A stretch of 64,000 nucleotides of DNA from an uncultured Kangiella sp. (GTDB taxonomy: Bacteria > Pseudomonadota > Gammaproteobacteria > Enterobacterales > Kangiellaceae): positions 333,469 to 397,468 of the forward strand of contig CANNDL010000001.1 in assembly GCA_947503435.1 (NCBI GenBank), read 5' to 3'. The translations under genes and the position numbers were made by a program. The notes under the pieces were generated by a model. The model had not been told where the DNA came from. It did not search any database and saw only the letters and a list, made by a program, of their open reading frames with translations. This document shows, piece after piece, positions 51,350 to 63,005 of the stretch (the stretch's first letter is position 1; each line of letters starts with the position of its first letter).

Positions 51350-52045
51350 ATGGCAAAGCGTATTGCTTTAGTAGAAGATGAGCCAATTTTGCAGCAAAAC
51401 TATAGCATGGCCTTGAAAAAGTCAGGTTATGAAGTGATGGTCTATGGGGATAAGAAGAATGCCTTATTAGCCTTTCAAAATAGATTGCCAGATTTAGTTT
51501 TGTTAGATATAGGCTTAGGCGATGAACCCGAAGCAGGGTTCGAGGTTTGTCGTGAGTTAAGACAAAAATCGAGTCAACTACCTATCATTTTCTTGACAGC
51601 ACTTGATAGTGACTTCGATATAATTTCTGGCTTGAGGTTGGGTGCTGATGATTATTTGACTAAAGACATCAGCATGCCGCACTTGCTAGCTCGTATTTCA
51701 GCACTATTTAGGCGAATGGAGCTATTAGCGGCCACTAATGAACCGGATGACAAGCTAGAAGTTGGGGACCTTACTATCGATAACGAACGGCTTTCGGTGA
51801 AATGGATGCAGCAACTGGTTGATTTGACCGTTACCGAATTTTGGATAGTGGCTGCATTAGCGAACAAACCCGGCCACGTTAAAAGTCGAGATCAATTGAT
51901 GCAAGCTGTAAAAGCTGTTGTTGACGACAGTACTATTACTTCTCATATCAAAAGAATTCGCCAAAAGTTTCAGACTATCGATCCAAAGTTTGATCATATT
52001 GATACTGTTTACGGCATGGGTTATCGTTGGAATAATCGTGCATGA
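51350..52045 (+). CDS. pdsR: OmpR-type response regulator, PdsR-like (proteobacterial dedicated sortase system)
   Basis: A 231-residue regulator. The receiver (1-120) has acidic pocket EDE near residue 12, phospho-Asp53 in VLLDIGLGDEPE, and LTALDSDFDIISGLRLGADDYLTKDISMPHLLARISALFRR. The C-terminal winged helix ends IKRIRQKFQTIDP...IDTVYGMGYRW. The wording of the alpha4-beta5-alpha5 region (DSDFDIISGLRLGADDYLTKDIS) is what I recall for the PdsR family that pairs with PdsS next to class-specific sortases. AAGGAAC precedes the ATG. It overlaps the kinase gene by 4 bases. Confidence 0.75.
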   Translation: MAKRIALVEDEPILQQNYSMALKKSGYEVMVYGDKKNALLAFQNRLPDLVLLDIGLGDEPEAGFEVCRELRQKSSQLPIIFLTALDSDFDIISGLRLGADDYLTKDISMPHLLARISALFRRMELLAATNEPDDKLEVGDLTIDNERLSVKWMQQLVDLTVTEFWIVAALANKPGHVKSRDQLMQAVKAVVDDSTITSHIKRIRQKFQTIDPKFDHIDTVYGMGYRWNNRA

Positions 52046-54057
52046 AATATATTTCCTTAAACTGGAAATTATTTGCTTTACTGGCACTTTTCTTTCTAGT
52101 GCCATTATCGGGTTGGTACTTAGCAAAGTATTTTGAAAGTCAATTAGAAGAGTTCAGAGTTGCTGAAAATAAGCAGCAGCTAAGTAGTTATCATAGTTTC
52201 TTACAGAAGTTGCTTGCTGAAGATAGTGACTTTGCTCAAAGCTTGGCAATAGAAAAATTGCCTAATCTAGTTACCGTTGGCAAGCGTCAAAGTTCTATAT
52301 TAATTGATGGCTTTGCCGACGAGTGGTTTTCCTACCAGGACAGCGCTTTGTTATCGCGTAACAGCGATAAGCCGTCTAGATTATTATTAGTTGAAGACGA
52401 ACGTTTTTTATTTGGGTTATTGCAAGTAAACGACAACCACTTGGTATATCGCAGTAGTCCTTACAGTAGTCAATCGTCTGATATGGTGCGAATTGATTTG
52501 GGGCAAGGGTTTTGGCTATTTCAAGCAATTGCTCCAGGGCGGTTGAAAGTCTTACGAGAATATGGAAATGGTTTTAAAACGTTAAATTCAGTATTTGCCG
52601 TATGGCAGGAAACTCAGGCTGGATACAATATTGAATTTCGTGTACCAAAATCATTAGTGGGAGATCGTCTAAATGCAGTTTTATATGACGTAGATAATAA
52701 AAATCTTAAAGAATATAATGAAATTTACCAAGGCGTTTTTACTTTTACCAATTTTAGTTATTTCCCATTGAGTGGTGTAACCAATAATGATTGGTTGTTA
52801 AGTAATAACTTTAGCAATCAGCGCCTAAGCATTCTTAATAAAAATGGGCAAATCATATATCGAGTTGGTGATTTGTTTCCTATTACTGATAGTTGGTTTA
52901 TCAAACCAGATTTAGTATCTCAAGCAGATAGTTACTTGCAAAGCACCAAATTGGACAATCAATTTACCAAGAAAACCAAGGCAGGCGATATAAATAATGA
53001 GCAAGTTGCCGATGGTACTCATTATTTTGTGGTGCGTTCAGCAAAACGATTTATGTTAAACGGTGATGAGCAGGGGATGGTGATTTTAGAATCTTCATTA
53101 CTTGATACAAAATTAAAACTAATAAGCATTCAGTGGGTTGGATTTCTTATATTTGCCATTATTTGGTTGCTACTTTGCATAGTAATTTTGAAGCGAGTGA
53201 GCCACTATCGAGAAAGAGTGAGTATTCTAAGAGAGTTAACAGAAGAGGTTTATGAAAATGATTCTGAAACTGTAGACCTTAAAACAATATCAGTTGAGGG
53301 AGATGACGAGGTTGCACAAGTATTTGAAAATTTAAATTACTTTAACAAGCGACTTGAGCAGCGCAGAGACCATCAACAGAAACTATTGGCAAGATTGAAT
53401 CATGAGTTACGTACTCCATTAGCAATAATAGGATCTTCAGTAGATAATCTAGCGCTTTCAGAATTAACAAAAGAAGATGAGCAACTCATTGCAAATGCTA
53501 GATCGGGATTAGAACGGTTAAGTTTGAGCTTTAGTCGTTTAAGTGAAGCTAATCGTTTGGAAGAAAGCATTGATTCAGTGAAACTAGATTGGTTCGAATT
53601 GAATCCACTTTTGGACTCACTAGTAAAATCCTACGCTAGGACTTGGCCGCATGTAACATTTGAATTAATCCTAACAGTTAAAGCGGTGAAAATTAAAGGT
53701 TCAGAAGATCTATTTGCCCAGTTAATGGATAAACTTATTTCTAACGCGGTTGATTTTGCAAAGGCCGGTTCACCAATAAAAATAAGTCTTGAGCAAACCA
53801 AATCCACATTAATATTAGAAGTAGCCAATCAAGGGCCAATAATTGAGTCTAGTAAATTGAAATCAATTTTTAATATTATGGAATCGCAAAGAGACAAGCA
53901 ATATAAGCAGGGGGCTAGTAATTTGGGGCTTGGGCTTTATATGGCTAAGCTTATAGCTAGACGGCATAGAGCAAAGATTGTAGCTAAGAATTTAGAATCA
54001 AAAGAGGGAGTGGCGCTTCAATTGAGTTGGAGCAAGAAAAGTTATATAGTTTTATAG
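52042..54057 (+). CDS. pdsS: Sensor histidine kinase, PdsS-like (proteobacterial dedicated sortase system)
   Basis: A 671-residue kinase. TM1 near residues 8-28, a large periplasmic region of about 320 residues that includes an ILIDGFADEWFSYQD element resembling a CBM9-like carbohydrate-binding fold, TM2 near 357-378, a HAMP-like linker, HisKA with His454 (RLNHELRTPLAIIGS), and HATPase boxes (NLGLGLYMAKLIARRHRA). Length, topology and the CBM9-like sensor fit PdsS. No sortase or LPXTG-type target gene is in this window. The start overlaps the pdsR stop (ATGA), so the pair is translationally coupled. Confidence 0.72.
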   Translation: MKYISLNWKLFALLALFFLVPLSGWYLAKYFESQLEEFRVAENKQQLSSYHSFLQKLLAEDSDFAQSLAIEKLPNLVTVGKRQSSILIDGFADEWFSYQDSALLSRNSDKPSRLLLVEDERFLFGLLQVNDNHLVYRSSPYSSQSSDMVRIDLGQGFWLFQAIAPGRLKVLREYGNGFKTLNSVFAVWQETQAGYNIEFRVPKSLVGDRLNAVLYDVDNKNLKEYNEIYQGVFTFTNFSYFPLSGVTNNDWLLSNNFSNQRLSILNKNGQIIYRVGDLFPITDSWFIKPDLVSQADSYLQSTKLDNQFTKKTKAGDINNEQVADGTHYFVVRSAKRFMLNGDEQGMVILESSLLDTKLKLISIQWVGFLIFAIIWLLLCIVILKRVSHYRERVSILRELTEEVYENDSETVDLKTISVEGDDEVAQVFENLNYFNKRLEQRRDHQQKLLARLNHELRTPLAIIGSSVDNLALSELTKEDEQLIANARSGLERLSLSFSRLSEANRLEESIDSVKLDWFELNPLLDSLVKSYARTWPHVTFELILTVKAVKIKGSEDLFAQLMDKLISNAVDFAKAGSPIKISLEQTKSTLILEVANQGPIIESSKLKSIFNIMESQRDKQYKQGASNLGLGLYMAKLIARRHRAKIVAKNLESKEGVALQLSWSKKSYIVL

Positions 54058-54107
54058 TCGTTTGTACTAGAATAATGACAATAGAAGGAGTTGAGCTCTA
54101 AGCTAGA

Positions 54108-57100
54108 ATGGCATCTGATACGAATAGTTTATCTAACATATTAATTTCTCAATTACTGTTGAGCGACTCCGTTCATTCTGCTCTTGAGTTAATCCTTAAT
54201 CACTATAGCTTCCTTTATACCGCAGAACTATATAAAAAAAATGATTTAAGCTGGTCGGTTGTTGCAACGGCTAAGAATTATAAATTTAACTGCCAGAGCC
54301 TTTCCAAGTTTGAAGAATATCAAGCACAACAAAATATTCACCGACTCGAGTTTGATGAGCAAATTGGAAGAGCGGTTATTGAGCAAGGCGATGAGAGTTT
54401 TTTTTATATTGCTAAACAAATAAGAATTCAAGATGAAAGTGCTATATCTTTAGTGCTTTGTGGTAGTGCTGGCAAGAATGCAGAATCAGATCAAGTTGAA
54501 TTGGTCAATTCCATAACGCCCATCTTAAGTAATCTGTATCGATTGCAAGAAAGTTCAAAAACAATCAGCGACATGAGCTTGCAAAACACTCAACAAGCAC
54601 GAGATTTAGATTTAAATAAAAGCTTACTGGATAGTGTTGGAGATGCAGTATTTTACCATGACGATAAAGGTCGTTTTTTAGATGTTAATCTTCAAGCAAT
54701 AATATCACTTGGTTATTCGAAAGCAGAACTACTCAATAAACGAGTGAAAGATATCGATCTTGGTGTTAACGAAGGTATATCGCTAACAAAATTATTAAGA
54801 GAGAAGACAAAACCAGGCCAGCCTTCGACTATTCAAAGCTGGCATTTGCGAAAAGATGGTTCACGCTTTCCAGTAGAAGTGACCGTGTCTTCACATGAAA
54901 CTGGTAATTTTTTAGCGGTTGCTAGAGATATCTCCAAACGTACTCAAATTAGGGCTGAGTTAGAAAAAACCAAGGTTTTTCTGGAAAGTGTAATCGACTT
55001 ATCTGAAAGCCTCATTTATGTTTATGACTATAGTAAAGATAAAATAATTAAAGGCGCCAATAAACTTGAAAAAGCACTGGGCTATCCAAAAGGAAGTATT
55101 TCAAATTTGAATGACCTTTTAAAATGCTGTCATCCAGATGATATGGAAAGCATCAAGAAAAGTTTAGCTCAAGTGTATAATACTGAACATAAAGGTCCCA
55201 TAGAATTTGATGATAGAGTTTTAGATGCGTTTGACAAGTGGCGCTGGGTTAGAAATCATTTTAGGGTTTTTGAAAGAGCAGAGACTGGTCAGCCTAAATT
55301 AGTCATTGCCACCGCAACGGACGTTACCCGATATAAACTTTTAGAAGAAAAATTAGTTAAAAGTCAAAATAAGTATCGGGCACTGGTTGAAAATTCTTTC
55401 GACGCTATAGCGGTTTTTGACAAAGATAATCAAGTTAGCTATGCATCATCTTCCGCTTACAGGATGTTAGATTATGAAATTGGCGATGCTACTAATTTAT
55501 ACTTTGATGACTTTGTACATTCTGATGACAGGCAGCTAATAGTTGATGCTTGGCGACAAATTTTGGAGAACCCTTCCAAGCCTATTGTTGTAGAGGAAGT
55601 TCGTCTGCAAAAAAAGACAGGAAAAACGATTTGGGCAAAAGCCACCTTAAATAACTTATTATATGATGATTTTGTACAAGGAATAGTTGCAAACTTTAGT
55701 GACCTTACTAAAGAAAAAACTGCTATTTCAGAGATTGATAAAAAAGAACGTTATTACAAGTCATTGGTGGAAAAATCATTTGATGGAGTTGCACTTTATG
55801 GTGCAGATGGGGAAATTAAATTTGTTAGCGATAAGTCAAAAAAACTCTTAGGCTACGAAAATGATGAAAAGGCCCCTCGCTATGCACTTGAGTATGTATA
55901 CCCCGAAGATTTGCATATTCCAAAGCAAGCATGGGTCAAATTATTGTTGCGACCCTTTGACTCGGTAGATTTGGATGAATACCGTTTGTTGAAAAAAGAC
56001 GGTAGTACTATTTGGATTCAAAATACACTCACTAATTTACTGGAAGATCCCAATGTAAAAGGTATTGTTAGTAATTTTCGTGATGTCAGCAGTCGAAAAA
56101 GTACCGAGCAGTCGCTTTATAAAGTATCAAATTACGATTCCGATTCAGGATTGCCAAATCGCAAATTTTTATTGGAACAATTAAAACAGCAAGTTAAAAA
56201 GTCGAGCAAATCAAAAGGGCAGTTTGGTTTAGTTACCATCGATATTAATGCTTTAAATGCAATTAATACAGCTCATGGTCATGCTATAGGTGATGCGGTT
56301 ATTTTAAAAGTTGCAGAAGCCATAAAGAATACAGTATCAGCTTCAGATTTTGTTGCAAAAATTGGAGATGATGAATATGGAATAATATTTTCTGATCAAT
56401 CAACTTACGAAGTTTCTCGTAAATGTCAGGAAATACTTGAGCAATTTAAGAACTTGATTGAGGTCAAGAAAAGTAAAGTTAAAGTATCACTTACGGCAGG
56501 AATATCTATATTTCCGAAAGATGCATTGAATTCTAGAAATTTGATTAGTCATGCAGAAATAGCATTGAAAAGAGCTAAATCTGATTCCGAGCCTTTTGCA
56601 TTTTATAAAAATCATGACAGCGAAATTACTCGTTATAGGTTGGATTTAGAGAAAGACTTGCTAGAGGCGCTTGCCAATAATGAGCTTTATATGGTTTACC
56701 AGCCCATAATTAATAACCAATCCGGCGAAATAGTTTACCTTGAGTCATTATTACGTTGGCAGCACCCAGAAAAAGGCAACATTCCACCTAATTTGTTTGT
56801 CAAAATTGCTGAAGAAAGTAATTTGATTGGCCGCTTAAGCGAGTGGGTAATTAATGCAGTGGTCAAGCAAATCGCTAAATGGAAATTGTTGGGTTTAACA
56901 CCTAAAGTTACAGTTAACTTATCCCCTAAAGATATTCGCAGTAAGAATATTACCGGTTTGATCATGGATGTTTTGGAAGAACATCAAGTTCAAGCATCTT
57001 CTTTAGCTGTCGAGATTACCGAAAGCGAAGAATTACTTGATTTAGAGTTCGTAAACTCGCAAATGAATGAATTAAATCAGTTGGGAGTTAGTATTATTCT

Positions 57101-57437
57101 GGATGATTTTGGTACAGGATTTTCGTCGATATCGCATCTACTTAATTTACCTATTTCGGCGGCAAAAGTTGATAAGTCATTTATCCACCGTCCAGAAGTT
57201 AGTGATGTCTCAGAGATTAAAAATTTCTTAACTGGCGTTATAAACTTAATCCAGGGGAGTGGTGTTGAGACGATTGTGGAAGGAATTGAAACTACTGAGC
57301 AGTTCCAATATTTAAGTGACAACAAAAAGATATATTGCCAAGGGTACTTGTTCTCAAAGCCAAAAGAAGCTCATCATATTACTAAGTTATTGCAACAAAA
57401 GAAGTTAGAACTAGACGAGTTATTTGCTAACTCATAA
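54108..57437 (+). CDS. Multi-PAS GGDEF-EAL cyclic-di-GMP protein with degenerate GGDEF
   Basis: A 1109-residue cytoplasmic protein. A GAF-like N-terminal part (about 1-150) is followed by a first PAS (about 165-280), a second (about 290-405), a third (about 415-530) and a fourth (about 540-655), then GGDEF (about 670-830) and EAL (about 845-1100). The GGDEF signature reads GDDEY (753-757), so cyclase activity is doubtful. The EAL domain has Glu879 in an ESL variant and keeps VNLSPKDI, EITESE, LDDFGTGFSS, AAKVDKSF, VEGIET and QGYLFSKP, consistent with phosphodiesterase activity. It follows pdsRS on the same strand after 50 bases and overlaps the convergent phosphatase gene by 11 bases. Confidence 0.9.
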   Translation: MASDTNSLSNILISQLLLSDSVHSALELILNHYSFLYTAELYKKNDLSWSVVATAKNYKFNCQSLSKFEEYQAQQNIHRLEFDEQIGRAVIEQGDESFFYIAKQIRIQDESAISLVLCGSAGKNAESDQVELVNSITPILSNLYRLQESSKTISDMSLQNTQQARDLDLNKSLLDSVGDAVFYHDDKGRFLDVNLQAIISLGYSKAELLNKRVKDIDLGVNEGISLTKLLREKTKPGQPSTIQSWHLRKDGSRFPVEVTVSSHETGNFLAVARDISKRTQIRAELEKTKVFLESVIDLSESLIYVYDYSKDKIIKGANKLEKALGYPKGSISNLNDLLKCCHPDDMESIKKSLAQVYNTEHKGPIEFDDRVLDAFDKWRWVRNHFRVFERAETGQPKLVIATATDVTRYKLLEEKLVKSQNKYRALVENSFDAIAVFDKDNQVSYASSSAYRMLDYEIGDATNLYFDDFVHSDDRQLIVDAWRQILENPSKPIVVEEVRLQKKTGKTIWAKATLNNLLYDDFVQGIVANFSDLTKEKTAISEIDKKERYYKSLVEKSFDGVALYGADGEIKFVSDKSKKLLGYENDEKAPRYALEYVYPEDLHIPKQAWVKLLLRPFDSVDLDEYRLLKKDGSTIWIQNTLTNLLEDPNVKGIVSNFRDVSSRKSTEQSLYKVSNYDSDSGLPNRKFLLEQLKQQVKKSSKSKGQFGLVTIDINALNAINTAHGHAIGDAVILKVAEAIKNTVSASDFVAKIGDDEYGIIFSDQSTYEVSRKCQEILEQFKNLIEVKKSKVKVSLTAGISIFPKDALNSRNLISHAEIALKRAKSDSEPFAFYKNHDSEITRYRLDLEKDLLEALANNELYMVYQPIINNQSGEIVYLESLLRWQHPEKGNIPPNLFVKIAEESNLIGRLSEWVINAVVKQIAKWKLLGLTPKVTVNLSPKDIRSKNITGLIMDVLEEHQVQASSLAVEITESEELLDLEFVNSQMNELNQLGVSIILDDFGTGFSSISHLLNLPISAAKVDKSFIHRPEVSDVSEIKNFLTGVINLIQGSGVETIVEGIETTEQFQYLSDNKKIYCQGYLFSKPKEAHHITKLLQQKKLELDELFANS

Positions 57438-58092
57438 ATAACTGAGCCAGCTCGTTACTGCTTGCAACTACAAAATCAGGTTTCCAATTATAAAATTCAT
57501 CCTCTTCGGTAATGTAACCATATTGAGCCGCAATAGCATATTGACCTGAGGATTTTGCAGCTTGAATATCACGAATAGCATCGCCGACGTAAATACATTG
57601 ATTGGCAACCACATTTGCTTGGTGACAGGCTAAAAACATCGGTGTGGGGCTAGGCTTAGTTGGCTTAATGGTGTCTCCACAGACTATGGAAGCAGCTCTG
57701 TCTTTTAATCCTAATGACTCCAATAATGGCATGGCTAAAAACTCCGGTTTGTTGGTAACGATGCCCCACTTAATTCCATTATTGTCAAAGTAAGTTAAGA
57801 GGATGTCTAGTTTTGGAAATAAGCTGCTGTTAACCGCCAAATTGTTGGCGTAAATACTTAAGTATTCTTGGCGGTACTTTTCAAAACGGCTATCTTTGGG
57901 CGTCATTTGAAACCCTAACTTCAAAAGTGCTGCTGCTCCATGGGAAACCCAAGGCCTAATAACGTCAAACGGCAAAGGAGCTAAATCATGCGCTTCTAAT
58001 TGAATGTTTAGCGCTAAAGCCATATCTGGAGCCGTATCAATTAAAGTTCCGTCTAAATCGAAAAATACTGCTTTGATTTGATGTTTAAACAT
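57427..58092 (-). CDS. mupP: HAD phosphatase, candidate N-acetylmuramic acid 6-phosphate phosphatase MupP
   Basis: A 221-residue HAD hydrolase. Motif I FFDLDGTLIDTAPDM (Asp nucleophile and acid), motif II GIVTNKPEFLAMPLLESLGL, Lys in KPTKPSPTPM and motif IV YVGDAIRDIQAAK. Sequence alone says phosphoglycolate-phosphatase-like (Gph). The neighbourhood ubiG-phosphatase-yciK matches Pseudomonas mupP, which removes phosphate from MurNAc-6-P in peptidoglycan recycling, so I prefer MupP by context. No other recycling gene is in the window. 14 bases separate it from ubiG. Confidence 0.8.
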   Translation of the reverse strand: MFKHQIKAVFFDLDGTLIDTAPDMALALNIQLEAHDLAPLPFDVIRPWVSHGAAALLKLGFQMTPKDSRFEKYRQEYLSIYANNLAVNSSLFPKLDILLTYFDNNGIKWGIVTNKPEFLAMPLLESLGLKDRAASIVCGDTIKPTKPSPTPMFLACHQANVVANQCIYVGDAIRDIQAAKSSGQYAIAAQYGYITEEDEFYNWKPDFVVASSNELAQLFMS

Positions 58093-58106: not shown

Positions 58107-58808
58107 TTATATAGGTAAGCAGTGAACGATATAATTAACATCCACATTATCCGCTAGCCAATACTTCTTAGTCAGAGGATTATAATGCATGCCGATCATG
58201 TGCTTAAAATCTAACCCATTCGGGCGTGACCAACTTTCAAGCTCAGAAGGGCGTATAAATTTCTTAAAATCATGAGTCCCCTTAGGCAGCATTTGCAAAA
58301 GATATTCTGCTCCTACGATGGCGAATAAAAAACTTTTAGGGTTGCGATTGATAGTGGAGAAAAAAACATTGCCACCCGGCTTAACTAGCATTCTGCAAGC
58401 CTTAATCACCGACTCTGGATCAGGGACATGCTCCAGCATCTCTAGGCAAGTTACCACATCAAATTGGCCCGCGTATTTTTCAGCAAAGTCCTCGGCTGTA
58501 GATTTTTGATAATCGACATCTAACTTAGACTCTAGCAAGTGCAATTTAGCAACTTCTAAGGGCATTTCGCCCATATCGATAGCAGTAACTTGGGCTCCTT
58601 CTTTAGCCATCGATTCGGCGAGTATGCCTCCGCCGCAACCAATATCCAAAACTTTTTTCCCGGCTAAACCACCGGCATGTTCAAGAATAAAATCTAATCG
58701 AAGCGGATTGATATCGTGTAAAGGCTTAAAGTCGCCTTCTTTATCCCACCATCGGGATGCCATTTTTTCAAATTTGGATATTTCGTGCTGATCAACATTC
58801 TGAGTCAT
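58107..58808 (-). CDS. ubiG: Ubiquinone biosynthesis O-methyltransferase UbiG
   Basis: A 233-residue SAM enzyme performing the two O-methylations of ubiquinone synthesis. It opens with [34 protein letters not shown], the family hallmark, followed by SAM motif [27 protein letters not shown] and [18 protein letters not shown]. It sits between the MtaD-like gene (8-base gap) and the phosphatase, a set conserved in gammaproteobacteria together with gyrA and serC. Confidence 0.96.
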
Positions 58809-58816
58809 AATTTTAG

Positions 58817-60106
58817 CTATTTATTAAATCGGTTATGCCATGAACCAAGTGACTTATTCAGGTAATTTTCATCGATATCAGTGAGCTGATAATTTGCAAC
58901 CTTTGTTTGACCATTTATCCATAAATGACTGGCTCTTTGTTGATTGGAAGTATAAACGATTTGCTCATAGGGGTCACAATAATTATAAGCGCTATTAATT
59001 TGTTCCATGGCGCAAAGATTGGCTATATACCCTTTAGCGATAGTGCCGGTTTTCATATCTGATGCCAGGGGTTGAGTTGCTAATTGAATGAGTTTTGATG
59101 CCGATTCAAGCTGTGAAGACCTGGATTCAAGCTTTCCAAGCCATGCCGCTAGTTGAAGCTCTTTAATGAGGTTTAAATTAGAGCTGAGGAAATTATCACT
59201 CCCTAAGCCTATATTGGCTCCTAAGCTCATTAATGCATACATGGGAGCTAAGGCTGTGGATTGAATCAGTTGTGACTGTGGACTGACACTACAAAAGGTT
59301 TTAGTTTTAGCAATTAATTCTATTTCTTGTCTATTTAGATGAGTGACTCGATTCAGTTGAAGATCAGGTGACAACAAGGACAAGCTGTTTAAACGCTTGA
59401 GGCTGCCGTGGCTAGATGCGTAATCAACAGTATTATGTAAAGGGTTCAGATTGACTTCTAGCTTCAATCCAAGTTCATTAGAGATAGCCGCTACTTTATC
59501 TAAAGCACTATCACTAACTTCAGGCAGGTTATCGATAGCAAGACTAATTTCGATTCCTGCGTGATGCTTGAAATCGTCCCGAAGCTGTAATGCTTTTGCA
59601 AGCTGCGTTTCAAGTTGACTGTCATGCCCGAAATCATAACTAGTAATGGGGTAGGAGAAATTCGCAATAATTGAATGCTTATGAACAGATTTTGCACTCA
59701 CACTGGGCATTAAATAGTGGCTATTAAAGCTGGTGGTACCGCTTTTGAACATTTCGCGCAAAGATAACTCAGAAGCCAACTCTACTAATTCGTCTGACAT
59801 ATGCTTCTTCTGAAGCGATAGTAAATGGTTTTGCAGGCGTAGATTAAAAGGTGAGTCAAAGCCTATATGATGAAAAGCACTAGCCCCTAGTGAACAATAA
59901 TGATTAGTAAAACCAGGCATCAAGATATGTTTATTCAACTCAATAGATTCTTTAGCCTGGTATTGATTTGCTACTTTACCTTGATCCAACACATCTATAA
60001 TTTGCCCATTATCAATAATTACTGCCTTTTTGCGCAATATAGCGTCATTTTTGCCACTCATTGGTAAAACGTATCGGGCATTAATTTGTAAGTCGATTTT
60101 TTGCAT
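58817..60106 (-). CDS. MtaD-like amidohydrolase-fold protein with missing metal ligands (pseudoenzyme)
   Basis: A 429-residue protein colinear with TRZ/ATZ-type deaminases such as MtaD (5'-methylthioadenosine / S-adenosylhomocysteine deaminase). Flanks of the active-site motifs are kept, but the residues are not. The HxH after the first strand is replaced in [10 protein letters not shown] (Tyr70 and Ser72). The H-x2-E of strand 5 reads EVNLNPLH (Asn219, Pro222). The downstream catalytic His position is Arg in LNRVTHL. HCPESN becomes VSPQSQ. Only the last Asp (304, LGSDNFLS) remains. The gene order ubiG-here-gyrA matches the mtaD locus. It is probably non-catalytic, with an unknown scaffold or regulatory role. 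Alignment was made by eye. Confidence 0.8.
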
Positions 60107-60377: not shown

Positions 60378-63005
60378 ATGGGTGAAGTCGCCAAAGAAAT
60401 ACTTCCAATTAATATTGAAGATGAGCTTAAAAACTCTTATTTAGATTATGCCATGAGTGTCATCGTTGGGCGTGCCTTGCCTGATGTTCGTGATGGCCTA
60501 AAACCTGTGCACAGAAGGGTGTTATATGCCATGGATGTACTGGGCAATGACTTCAATAAGGCCTATAAAAAATCCGCCCGTGTTGTGGGTGACGTAATTG
60601 GTAAATATCACCCGCATGGTGATACTGCGGTTTACGATACGATTGTACGTATGGCGCAACCATTTTCTTTGCGCTATATGTTGGTTGATGGTCAGGGTAA
60701 CTTTGGTTCGGTTGATGGTGATTCACCCGCTGCGATGCGTTATACGGAAGTGCGCATGGACAAAATGGCACATCAATTACTAGCGGATCTTGATAAAGAA
60801 ACTGTCGATTTTGAAGAGAACTATGATGGCTCTGAAAGCGAACCGACGGTTTTGCCAACTCGTATCCCTAATCTACTAGTTAATGGTTCTTCAGGTATCG
60901 CTGTAGGTATGGCAACCAATATCCCTCCGCATAACTTGAATGAAGTTATTGATGGTTGTTTGGCTTTGATTGATAACCCGGATATGACCATTTCGGATTT
61001 GATGGAGTACATCAAAGGTCCGGATTTCCCAACTGCAGCAATTATTAATGGCCGTGCCGGCATTGTGGATGCTTATAACACGGGACGCGGCAAGATTTAT
61101 TTACGTGCACGCCATCACATCGAAACAGATGAGAAAAATGGTAAGGATTCGATAGTAGTCACGGAGCTTCCTTACCAAGTTAATAAGGCTCGTTTGCTAG
61201 AAAAAATTGCTGAGCTAGTTAAAGATAAAAAAATTGAAGGCATTACTGGTCTGCGTGATGAGTCTGATAAAGATGGTATGCGCATGGTGATTGAATTGCG
61301 CAAAGGCGAAGTGCCAGAAGTTATATTGAACAATTTATATGCCCAATCTCAAATGCAGAATGTGTTTGGTATCAATATGGTGGCCTTGGATAATGGTCAA
61401 CCACGTCTATTTAACCTTAAAGATGCATTAGATGCATTCTTAACTCATCGTCGCGAAGTGGTTACGCGTCGTACTATTTTTGAATTGCGAAAGGCTCGAG
61501 AAAAAGCTCATGTTTTGGAAGGTTTAGCCATCGCACTAGCTAATATTGATGAAGTGATTGAGTTAATTAAGCAATCGCCTACACCAAAAGAGGCGAAAGC
61601 AGAGTTAATTGCTCGCGGTTGGAAGCCTGGTCAAGTTTCAGAAATGTTAGCCCGTGCGGGAACAGAAGCTTGTCGCCCTGAGGATTTAGGTGCTGAATTT
61701 GGCTTCCATGATGATGTGTACATGTTGTCGGAAGCGCAAGCTCAAGCAATCCTTGAATTGCGTTTACACAAGTTGACTGGTCTTGAACACGATAAAATTT
61801 TAGACGAATACAAAGATTTATTAGGTCTAATTGAAGAATTATTGCATATTTTATTGAACACTGAGCGCTTATTAGAAGTAATTCGGGAAGAACTTAATGA
61901 AGTTCGCGAAGAGTTTGGTGATGAGCGTCGCTCTGAGATTTTAGAAAGCAAATTAGATCTGACGATAGCTGATTTAATTACCGAAGAAGATGTTGTCGTA
62001 ACCCTTTCTCATGAAGGGTATGTTAAATACCAAGCATTATCTGAATATAAGGCACAGCGTCGTGGTGGTCGCGGTAAATCAGCCACTAAAATGAAGAATG
62101 AGGATTTTATTGAGAAGTTATTAGTTGCTTCGACCCACGATACGATTTTATGTTTCTCTTCTCGCGGTAAAGTTTATTGGTTAAAAGTCTTTGAATTACC
62201 AAATGCTGGTCGTGGTTCACGTGGTAAACCAATTGTGAATGTCTTGCCATTAGAAGAAGGCGAAAAGATCAGTGCAATCTTGCCAATTCGCGAATATAAA
62301 GAAGATGAATATGTCTTTATGGCGACGGCTAATGGTACGGTTAAGAAAACTTCTTTAGAGCAATTCTCACGCCCTCGTGCTAATGGCATTATCGCCTTAA
62401 CCATTATGGACGATGATGAATTAATTGGTGTAGCAAAAACTGATGGAACTGATCATGTGATGATGTTTAGTGATGCCGGTAAAGTAATTCGATTCGATGA
62501 AGCGAATGTACGTGCTATGGGCCGTACCGCGAAAGGAGTCAGAGGCATTCGCTTACTCGACGGGGCCAAAGTTATTGCCATGGTGGTAACCGAAGAAGAT
62601 GGTTCTATTTTAACGGCGACTGAAAATGGTTACGGTAAACGTACTGCAATGGATGACCATCCATTACGTGGCCGAGGTGGTCAGGGTGTAATTTCAATTC
62701 AAATGTCTGAGCGTAATGGCGGTGTTGTTAGTGCGGTTCCAGTTATTGATGGCGATGAAGTCATGTTAATCAGTAAAGGCGGAACTTTGATTCGTACTGG
62801 GGTTGATGATATTCGTGTCATGGGTCGTAATACGCAAGGTGTGCGCTTGATTAAATTGGATGAAGGCGAAACTCTTGTAGGCTTACAGCGTATTGTTGAA
62901 TTAGATGACGATGAAGACTTTGAAGAGAACCAAGTCGCTGACACTAGTGAAGCTTCAAGTGTGGTAGCTGCTGAAGTATCAACGGAAGAAGCACCTGAAG
63001 ATTAA
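60378..63005 (+). CDS. gyrA: DNA gyrase subunit A
   Basis: An 875-residue type II topoisomerase subunit. The catalytic Tyr122 lies in MRYTEVRMD. The quinolone-resistance region reads [19 protein letters not shown], with Thr at position 83 and Asp at 87; Thr83 is the ordinary residue in pseudomonads. The C-terminal DNA-wrapping domain contains the GyrA box QRRGGRGK and repeated blade motifs ([42 protein letters not shown]). The end is an acidic tail. It introduces negative supercoils with GyrB. Followed by serC after 12 bases, as in many gammaproteobacteria. Confidence 0.98.

Follow-up and report, generated by a model that had tools for sequence, protein, structure and literature searches.

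A putative MtaD-derived pseudoenzyme in the slot before ubiG in one Kangiella clade

Locus, predicted fold and former ligand positions

The window analysed here, 64,000 nucleotides of a contig from an uncultured Kangiella sp., contains on its minus strand an open reading frame (58817–60106) that begins with ATG, stays open throughout and encodes 429 amino acids. From the reading frame, homology, alignment and a structural model, we describe its product as pseudo-MtaD, a protein of predicted amidohydrolase fold without the deaminase metal site. The ubiG gene (58107–58808, minus strand; TIGR01983, 293.8 bits against a cut-off of 102.95) is located directly downstream, separated by a gap of 8 bp, and is a presumed operon neighbour. 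The third gene of the same-strand run (57427–58092, minus strand) encodes a HAD phosphatase of the MupP/phosphoglycolate phosphatase type, with the best match to NF009696 (MupP) at 185.3 bits, below the cut-off of 359. On the other side, the slot is anchored by the divergent gyrA gene (60378–63005, plus strand).

This order of gyrA, mtaD-type gene, ubiG and HAD phosphatase is identical in the five other genomes carrying a pseudo copy and in the three genomes with intact mtaD laid out for comparison. Moreover, gyrA and ubiG frames lie within 1.5 kb of the gene on either side in all 22 loci examined, which include 13 intact Kangiella loci and three outgroups. These observations agree with a preliminary description made from the DNA letters of the window, which gave the same coordinates, strand and intact 429-codon frame and placed the gene in an mtaD-type slot beside ubiG. 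No plus-strand frame of 100 or more residues is found across 58817–60106, and an overlapping antisense gene was therefore rejected as a source of constraint. Elsewhere in the window, a response regulator, a histidine kinase and a PAS-GGDEF-EAL gene form a block (51350–57437) between a yciK-like SDR gene and the mtaD-ubiG-HAD run; the PAS-GGDEF-EAL gene is absent from the corresponding place in the loci L036, L037 and L040.

The window protein matches the amidohydrolase family PF01979 with 71.6 bits (Pfam gathering cut-off 25). Its match to the MtaD-type family NF006549 spans residues 1–428 (E 2.7e-74), in line with the full-length colinearity described before, and the score of 250.4 bits stays below the curated cut-off of 540. 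Among PDB sequences, the highest-ranking match is 4f0r, which carries the name MTA/SAH deaminase. The AlphaFold2 model (pTM 0.80, pLDDT 76.2; 10-row alignment including intact MtaD rows) places strand 1 at residues 66–71 and the last barrel strand at residues 298–301. Foldseek ranked 4f0r, 4gbd, 4f0s, 4dzh, 4dyk and 3lnp first in the PDB with query TM values of 0.87–0.88, and the top seven PDB rows are titled adenosine deaminase or, for 3lnp, Oleispira amidohydrolase. At the level of the overall fold, the comparison with a solved MtaD, which the preliminary description had proposed as a check, gives a predicted MtaD-type fold (TM 0.87). A model computed from pseudo copies alone (5 rows) was poor (pLDDT 53.9, pTM 0.46) and was not used, and the better one drew on intact MtaD rows, so the fold assignment owes as much to homology as to prediction.

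The former ligand positions were read from 40 aligned rows (34 intact copies and six pseudo copies). They were selected from 59 candidate loci, and the others were left out either as identical copies or because no match was obtained, the two reasons being pooled. H70, H72, H219, E222, H253, H274 and D304 are each present in 34/34 intact rows. The seven columns are measured, and their ligand or catalytic roles are assumed from general family knowledge, in which the zinc ligands are presumably the HxH pair, the strand-5 His, the strand-6 His and the strand-8 Asp. The window protein has lost six of the seven. It reads Tyr70-Cys71-Ser72 in barrel strand 1 (59891–59899, minus strand) at the position of His-x-His in intact MtaD, followed by Asn219, Pro222, Arg253, VSPQSQ at 274–279, and Asp304. 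Among the presumed zinc ligands only Asp304 is kept, with Y70/S72, N219 and R253 at the others, and the glutamate of HxxE and the histidine of HCP[EQ]SN are replaced by P222 and V274. The residues are those given in the preliminary description, and its equivalence to MtaD ligands, drawn by eye, is borne out by the alignment.

In the order window, G029, G024, G030, G027 and G031 (labels of the genomes compared), the six pseudo copies read YYYYYF at column 70, SSSSSS at 72, NQSSSQ at 219, PRPPR- at 222, RQDDNN at 253, VVVIVL at 274 and DHNNDD at 304. None of the seven ancestral residues is conserved across the six. The earlier statement that only Asp304 remains is accordingly correct for the window protein and fails for the group, in which three copies have His or Asn. 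In the six-copy alignment, no His, Asp or Glu is common to all copies at the former ligand columns, which lends no support to a metal site rebuilt from other residues, the outcome named beforehand as a refutation. A register shift by one residue, with His69-x-Cys71 as the metal pair, was also rejected: pseudo and intact copies alike retain P64 and N68, the alignment shows no gap from one to the other, and Ser69 stands in the G029 copy, which by family score has diverged least.

A still active deaminase with unusual ligands could appeal to Asp304 and the retained fold. It would have to work without H70, H72, H219, E222, H253 and H274, in three of the six copies without Asp304 as well, and with family-model scores that fall from 633–653 to 141–336 bits, so that we regard it as extremely improbable. 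Judged from these residues, the zinc-deaminase function is almost certainly lost.

Distribution and selection within Kangiella

Twenty Kangiella genomes, among them that of the window (G000), were returned and searched. Intact MtaD is present in 13 of them (633–653 bits on NF006549, all 13 passing the cut-off), and six contain the degenerate copy only (141–336 bits, none passing). No MtaD was found in the remaining genome, which is 55% complete. The search for a second, intact mtaD that had been called for found none in any of the six genomes; in the window's own genome the next match has 68.5 bits, and a regulatory subunit of an intact paralogue was rejected on this ground.

The six, small genomes of marine Kangiella, form one group in a FastTree tree of UbiG and partial GyrA (split support 0.993). 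In the whole order, the pseudo alignment matched 97 of 295 genomes, and only these six exceed 600 bits, with the next at 381. The other order-level proteins looked at, all from returned loci, have an intact HxH and Asp; independent losses are conceivable among the order-level matches without a locus. Within Kangiella, the loss counts as a single event, and mtaD would have been converted once to a pseudoenzyme, in the ancestor of this subclade.

The protein has changed very fast. Pairwise identity among the six averages 41.2% for pseudo-MtaD (range 31.4–96.5), 88.1% for UbiG and 96.4% for partial GyrA, and the corresponding values within the 13 intact Kangiella are 77.2% for MtaD, 87.1% for UbiG and 95.3% for GyrA. 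The frame is nevertheless open in all six copies, the single TAA tabulated for G024 and G030 being the terminal stop. AT drift as a sign of decay was rejected: third-position GC in the same six genomes is 35.0% for the pseudo gene, 37.4% for UbiG and 38.1% for GyrA, at most a slight difference.

Selection was estimated using a self-written GY94-type codon model, the code of which was not checked against PAML; the topology inside the clade follows the gene tree, which differs slightly from the UbiG and GyrA tree. Omega is 0.131 in the six pseudo copies versus 0.029 in 8 of the 13 intact MtaD, and UbiG has 0.019 and 0.018 in the pseudo and intact sets. In a joint codon tree of six pseudo and six intact copies, two ratios (0.028 intact, 0.135 pseudo) beat one ratio by 83 lnL, and a crown omega of 1 is worse by 222 lnL; the stem omega of a three-ratio model is uninformative, with dS saturated. 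Selection on the pseudo copies is thus about five times looser than on MtaD. Because deep branches are saturated in dS, the clean evidence for selection comes from the close pair G024/G030, which differs at 32 synonymous and 15 nonsynonymous codons in 426 codons. Its omega is 0.148, and omega = 1, worse by 18.3 lnL (2*dlnL 36.5), is rejected. The dN/dS comparison across relatives suggested in the preliminary description therefore yields an omega of about 0.13–0.15 for the pseudo copies, and its reading of the intact frame as selection rather than decay is upheld by this pair, which rejects neutral decay.

These results bear on a slowly dying gene, in which selection is relaxed and the frame remains open through too little time or through a dependence of ubiG translation on it. 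The very fast protein change, the tight 8-bp spacing to ubiG and the genome reduction described for Kangiella (PMC6000758) are all compatible with such a gene. However, six genomes keep open frames at 31–97% mutual identity, and the G024/G030 pair reveals constraint on amino acids, whereas coupling to ubiG needs an open frame and not conserved amino acids. Moreover, a truly decaying gene of the clade looks different: the broken nucleosidase remnant of G031 (L035:6380-6656, G031:C1), whose best pieces are still 65–78% identical. We consider slow decay very unlikely.

Neither a disrupted frame nor neutral substitution, the marks of a pseudogene, was found, and the gene combines the features of a pseudoenzyme, namely lost catalytic residues, a kept frame and predicted fold, and purifying selection. 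A selected function is very probably kept. The pseudoenzyme with a non-catalytic role, as first proposed, stands in that the deaminase residues are lost at the same locus in six genomes of one clade; that the kept role is non-catalytic we infer.

The MTA and polyamine setting

In P. aeruginosa, 5'-methylthioadenosine (MTA) is deaminated to methylthioinosine, which then undergoes phosphorolysis (PMC6302742). All 20 Kangiella genomes have AhcY, so SAH does not need MtaD. The bacterial AdoMet decarboxylase (SpeD, PF02675), which is on the route making MtaD's substrate, is present in 13/13 intact genomes and 0/6 pseudo genomes. The equation of SpeD loss with absence of MTA holds in part only: half of the pseudo genomes have another decarboxylase together with SpeE. 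The eukaryote-type AdoMet decarboxylase PF01536 occurs in three of the 20 Kangiella genomes, namely G024, G030 and G031, all without PF02675, and the same three carry SpeE above 200 bits and probably still make MTA. PF01536 and SpeE are adjacent in both loci read, L082:4895-6704 (G024) and L083:4499-6308 (G031), where agmatinase-like and SpeA-like frames, named by eye, lie nearby. In the window's genome, G027 and G029, the searches found neither type of AdoMet decarboxylase and only a PF01564 homologue of 43–54 bits that the other genomes carry as well.

A nucleosidase closest in the PDB to the plant MTA nucleosidase 2h8g (167 bits, below NCBIfam cut-offs), the plant enzyme presumably being AtMTN1, is located divergently beside apt, the gene for adenine phosphoribosyltransferase, in four of the six pseudo genomes: that of the window (L031:6424-7764, G000:C3), G024, G027 and G030. 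Only these four of the 20 Kangiella genomes have nucleosidase and apt both over their cut-offs. By homology, this pair would handle MtaD's substrate; the nucleosidase is a PNP-fold protein at a different locus, unrelated to pseudo-MtaD and no part of the pseudoenzyme. Among the 13 intact-MtaD Kangiella, no PF01048 match and no apt over the cut-off was found, with a 20-bit apt match in G026. Likewise, neither nucleosidase nor apt was found in G029, and G031 contains the broken remnant with no apt found.

Two side observations concern disposal. In G031, decarboxylase and SpeE are present, and neither intact MtaD nor intact nucleosidase was found for the disposal of MTA. The 13 intact-MtaD Kangiella show no PF01048 phosphorylase and no mtnA match, and methylthioinosine is perhaps a dead end or exported there.

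Among 20 genomes from other genera of the family, 13 contain a relative of the nucleosidase, and at least eight of these 13 also have MtaD with an intact HxH, so redundancy alone does not kill MtaD. These relatives also make differential loss as likely as a new gain, which softens the idea that a newly gained nucleosidase replaced MtaD. The trigger of the conversion may have been a turnover of MTA metabolism, and the conversion would have followed or accompanied the disappearance of the bacterial route to spermidine. Catalysis would no longer have been needed once the bacterial AdoMet decarboxylase was gone, the plant-type nucleosidase and apt probably covering MTA in four of the six genomes; the association with SpeD loss was observed a single time, in this clade.

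Less certain than this trigger, the protein body would have survived for another job. Pseudo-mtaD persists in G029 and G031, which have no intact nucleosidase, and in the window's genome, G027 and G029, in which no AdoMet decarboxylase was found. Kept with or without routes that make or clear MTA, the gene shows a retention that does not track MTA chemistry, and this points to a role outside it; these are associations from one clade and not tests.

Conserved segments and candidate roles

Ninety-two columns reach at least 95% conservation across the 34 intact rows. The six pseudo copies all retain the ancestral residue in 16 of these and are fixed for a different one in five (H72S, A74G, W90R, F107L and G305N). 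Against a smaller set of 16 intact rows and 141 columns, eight such derived-fixed changes are counted, and none was found in 115 UbiG and 292 GyrA columns. The best-conserved 30-residue stretch among the pseudo copies is 64–93 (59828–59917, minus strand), which includes H72S, A74G and W90R. Its conservation is reached in 31 of 2000 shuffles, a modest test on five rows, for which the near-duplicate copy of G030 was omitted, with a stretch length of our choosing. This stretch is highly conserved in intact MtaD too, and part of its conservation may be old. Three other segments also stand out. Codons 301–320 (59147–59206, minus strand) follow the last barrel strand and contain Asp304, which is not kept clade-wide, the fixed G305N and a one-residue deletion after Asn310 common to all six. 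Codons 376–420 (58847–58981, minus strand) form a second conserved segment with the motif DPxxQxVY...SHLW...L, and the third covers residues 166–180. Strand 1 and the last strand are neighbours in a TIM barrel, and the pattern thus suggests one conserved barrel side.

The invariance of Cys71, Ser72, Arg90, Asn93 and Asn305 in the six copies, together with the five changed and fixed ancestral invariants, could indicate a new enzyme with a metal-free activity or with a metal site rebuilt from other residues. Against this stands the lack of a shared His, Asp or Glu at the former ligand columns. In addition, Cys71 lies between the two positions of the former HxH pair, where strand alternation should turn it away from the pocket, and Cys occupies this position in 7/34 intact rows as well. 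New chemistry is therefore an unlikely reading.

A ligand-binding sensor, in which the old pocket would signal to a partner after binding, but not converting, a nucleoside or similar small molecule, fits the data somewhat better. The newly fixed S72, G74 and N305 are at or within two positions of former ligands, R90 is in the following loop, and the barrel is retained in the model. However, columns invariant in intact MtaD have an elevated rate of loss across all six copies when they lie within five residues of a former ligand (13/28, versus 15/71 elsewhere; Fisher p 0.024), and the old-pocket stretches 190–197 and 271–285 are poorly conserved. We retain the sensor as a lesser possibility.

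We moderately favour a role in binding or assembly over new chemistry or a sensor. The binding side would comprise strand 1 with its loop, the last strand and the C-terminal segment, a barrel side proposed because conservation and newly fixed residues concentrate there. UbiG and the HAD phosphatase would be the first candidate partners, although UbiG has no matching fixed changes. On balance, this gene is probably the mtaD orthologue, still in its original place, which in this clade has become a pseudoenzyme whose function is other than deamination and may be binding or scaffolding.

Pseudo-MtaD resembles the MtaD-type MTA/SAH deaminases (NF006549/PRK09045; PDB 4gbd, 4dyk, 4f0r) in length, predicted fold, position before ubiG and C-terminal motif, and differs from them by the loss of metal and catalytic residues, a score of 250 bits against 540 and an approximately five-fold higher omega. 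Inactive amidohydrolases have precedents, and pseudo-MtaD is therefore not new in kind. The dihydropyrimidinase-like CRMPs and the inactive dihydroorotase domains or subunits use the amidohydrolase fold for assembly or binding after loss of metal ligands, and inactive dihydroorotases work with another enzyme of their pathway. Unlike these, pseudo-MtaD belongs to a different subfamily, and intact MtaD was not found in the window's genome. Searches of open-access literature listed no report of a dead MtaD.

The locus provides a clean natural case of a change from enzyme to pseudoenzyme, with one gene slot occupied by the active type in 13 genomes and the dead type in six genomes of one genus. 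Because selection can be measured in the two groups and a metabolic trigger is plausible, the locus is suited to the question why cells keep a metabolic enzyme that is dead. A further point is an annotation warning: the copies could take MtaD names from their relatives, and metabolic models using such names would credit the clade with an MTA/SAH deamination that is most likely absent. More tentatively, a deaminase freed by polyamine and MTA rewiring may have become, in a single conversion, a non-enzymatic part of the ubiG operon that evolves fast but under selection, perhaps a binding or assembly factor in ubiquinone synthesis or cell-wall recycling; this would leave living intermediates between enzyme and non-enzyme in one genus.
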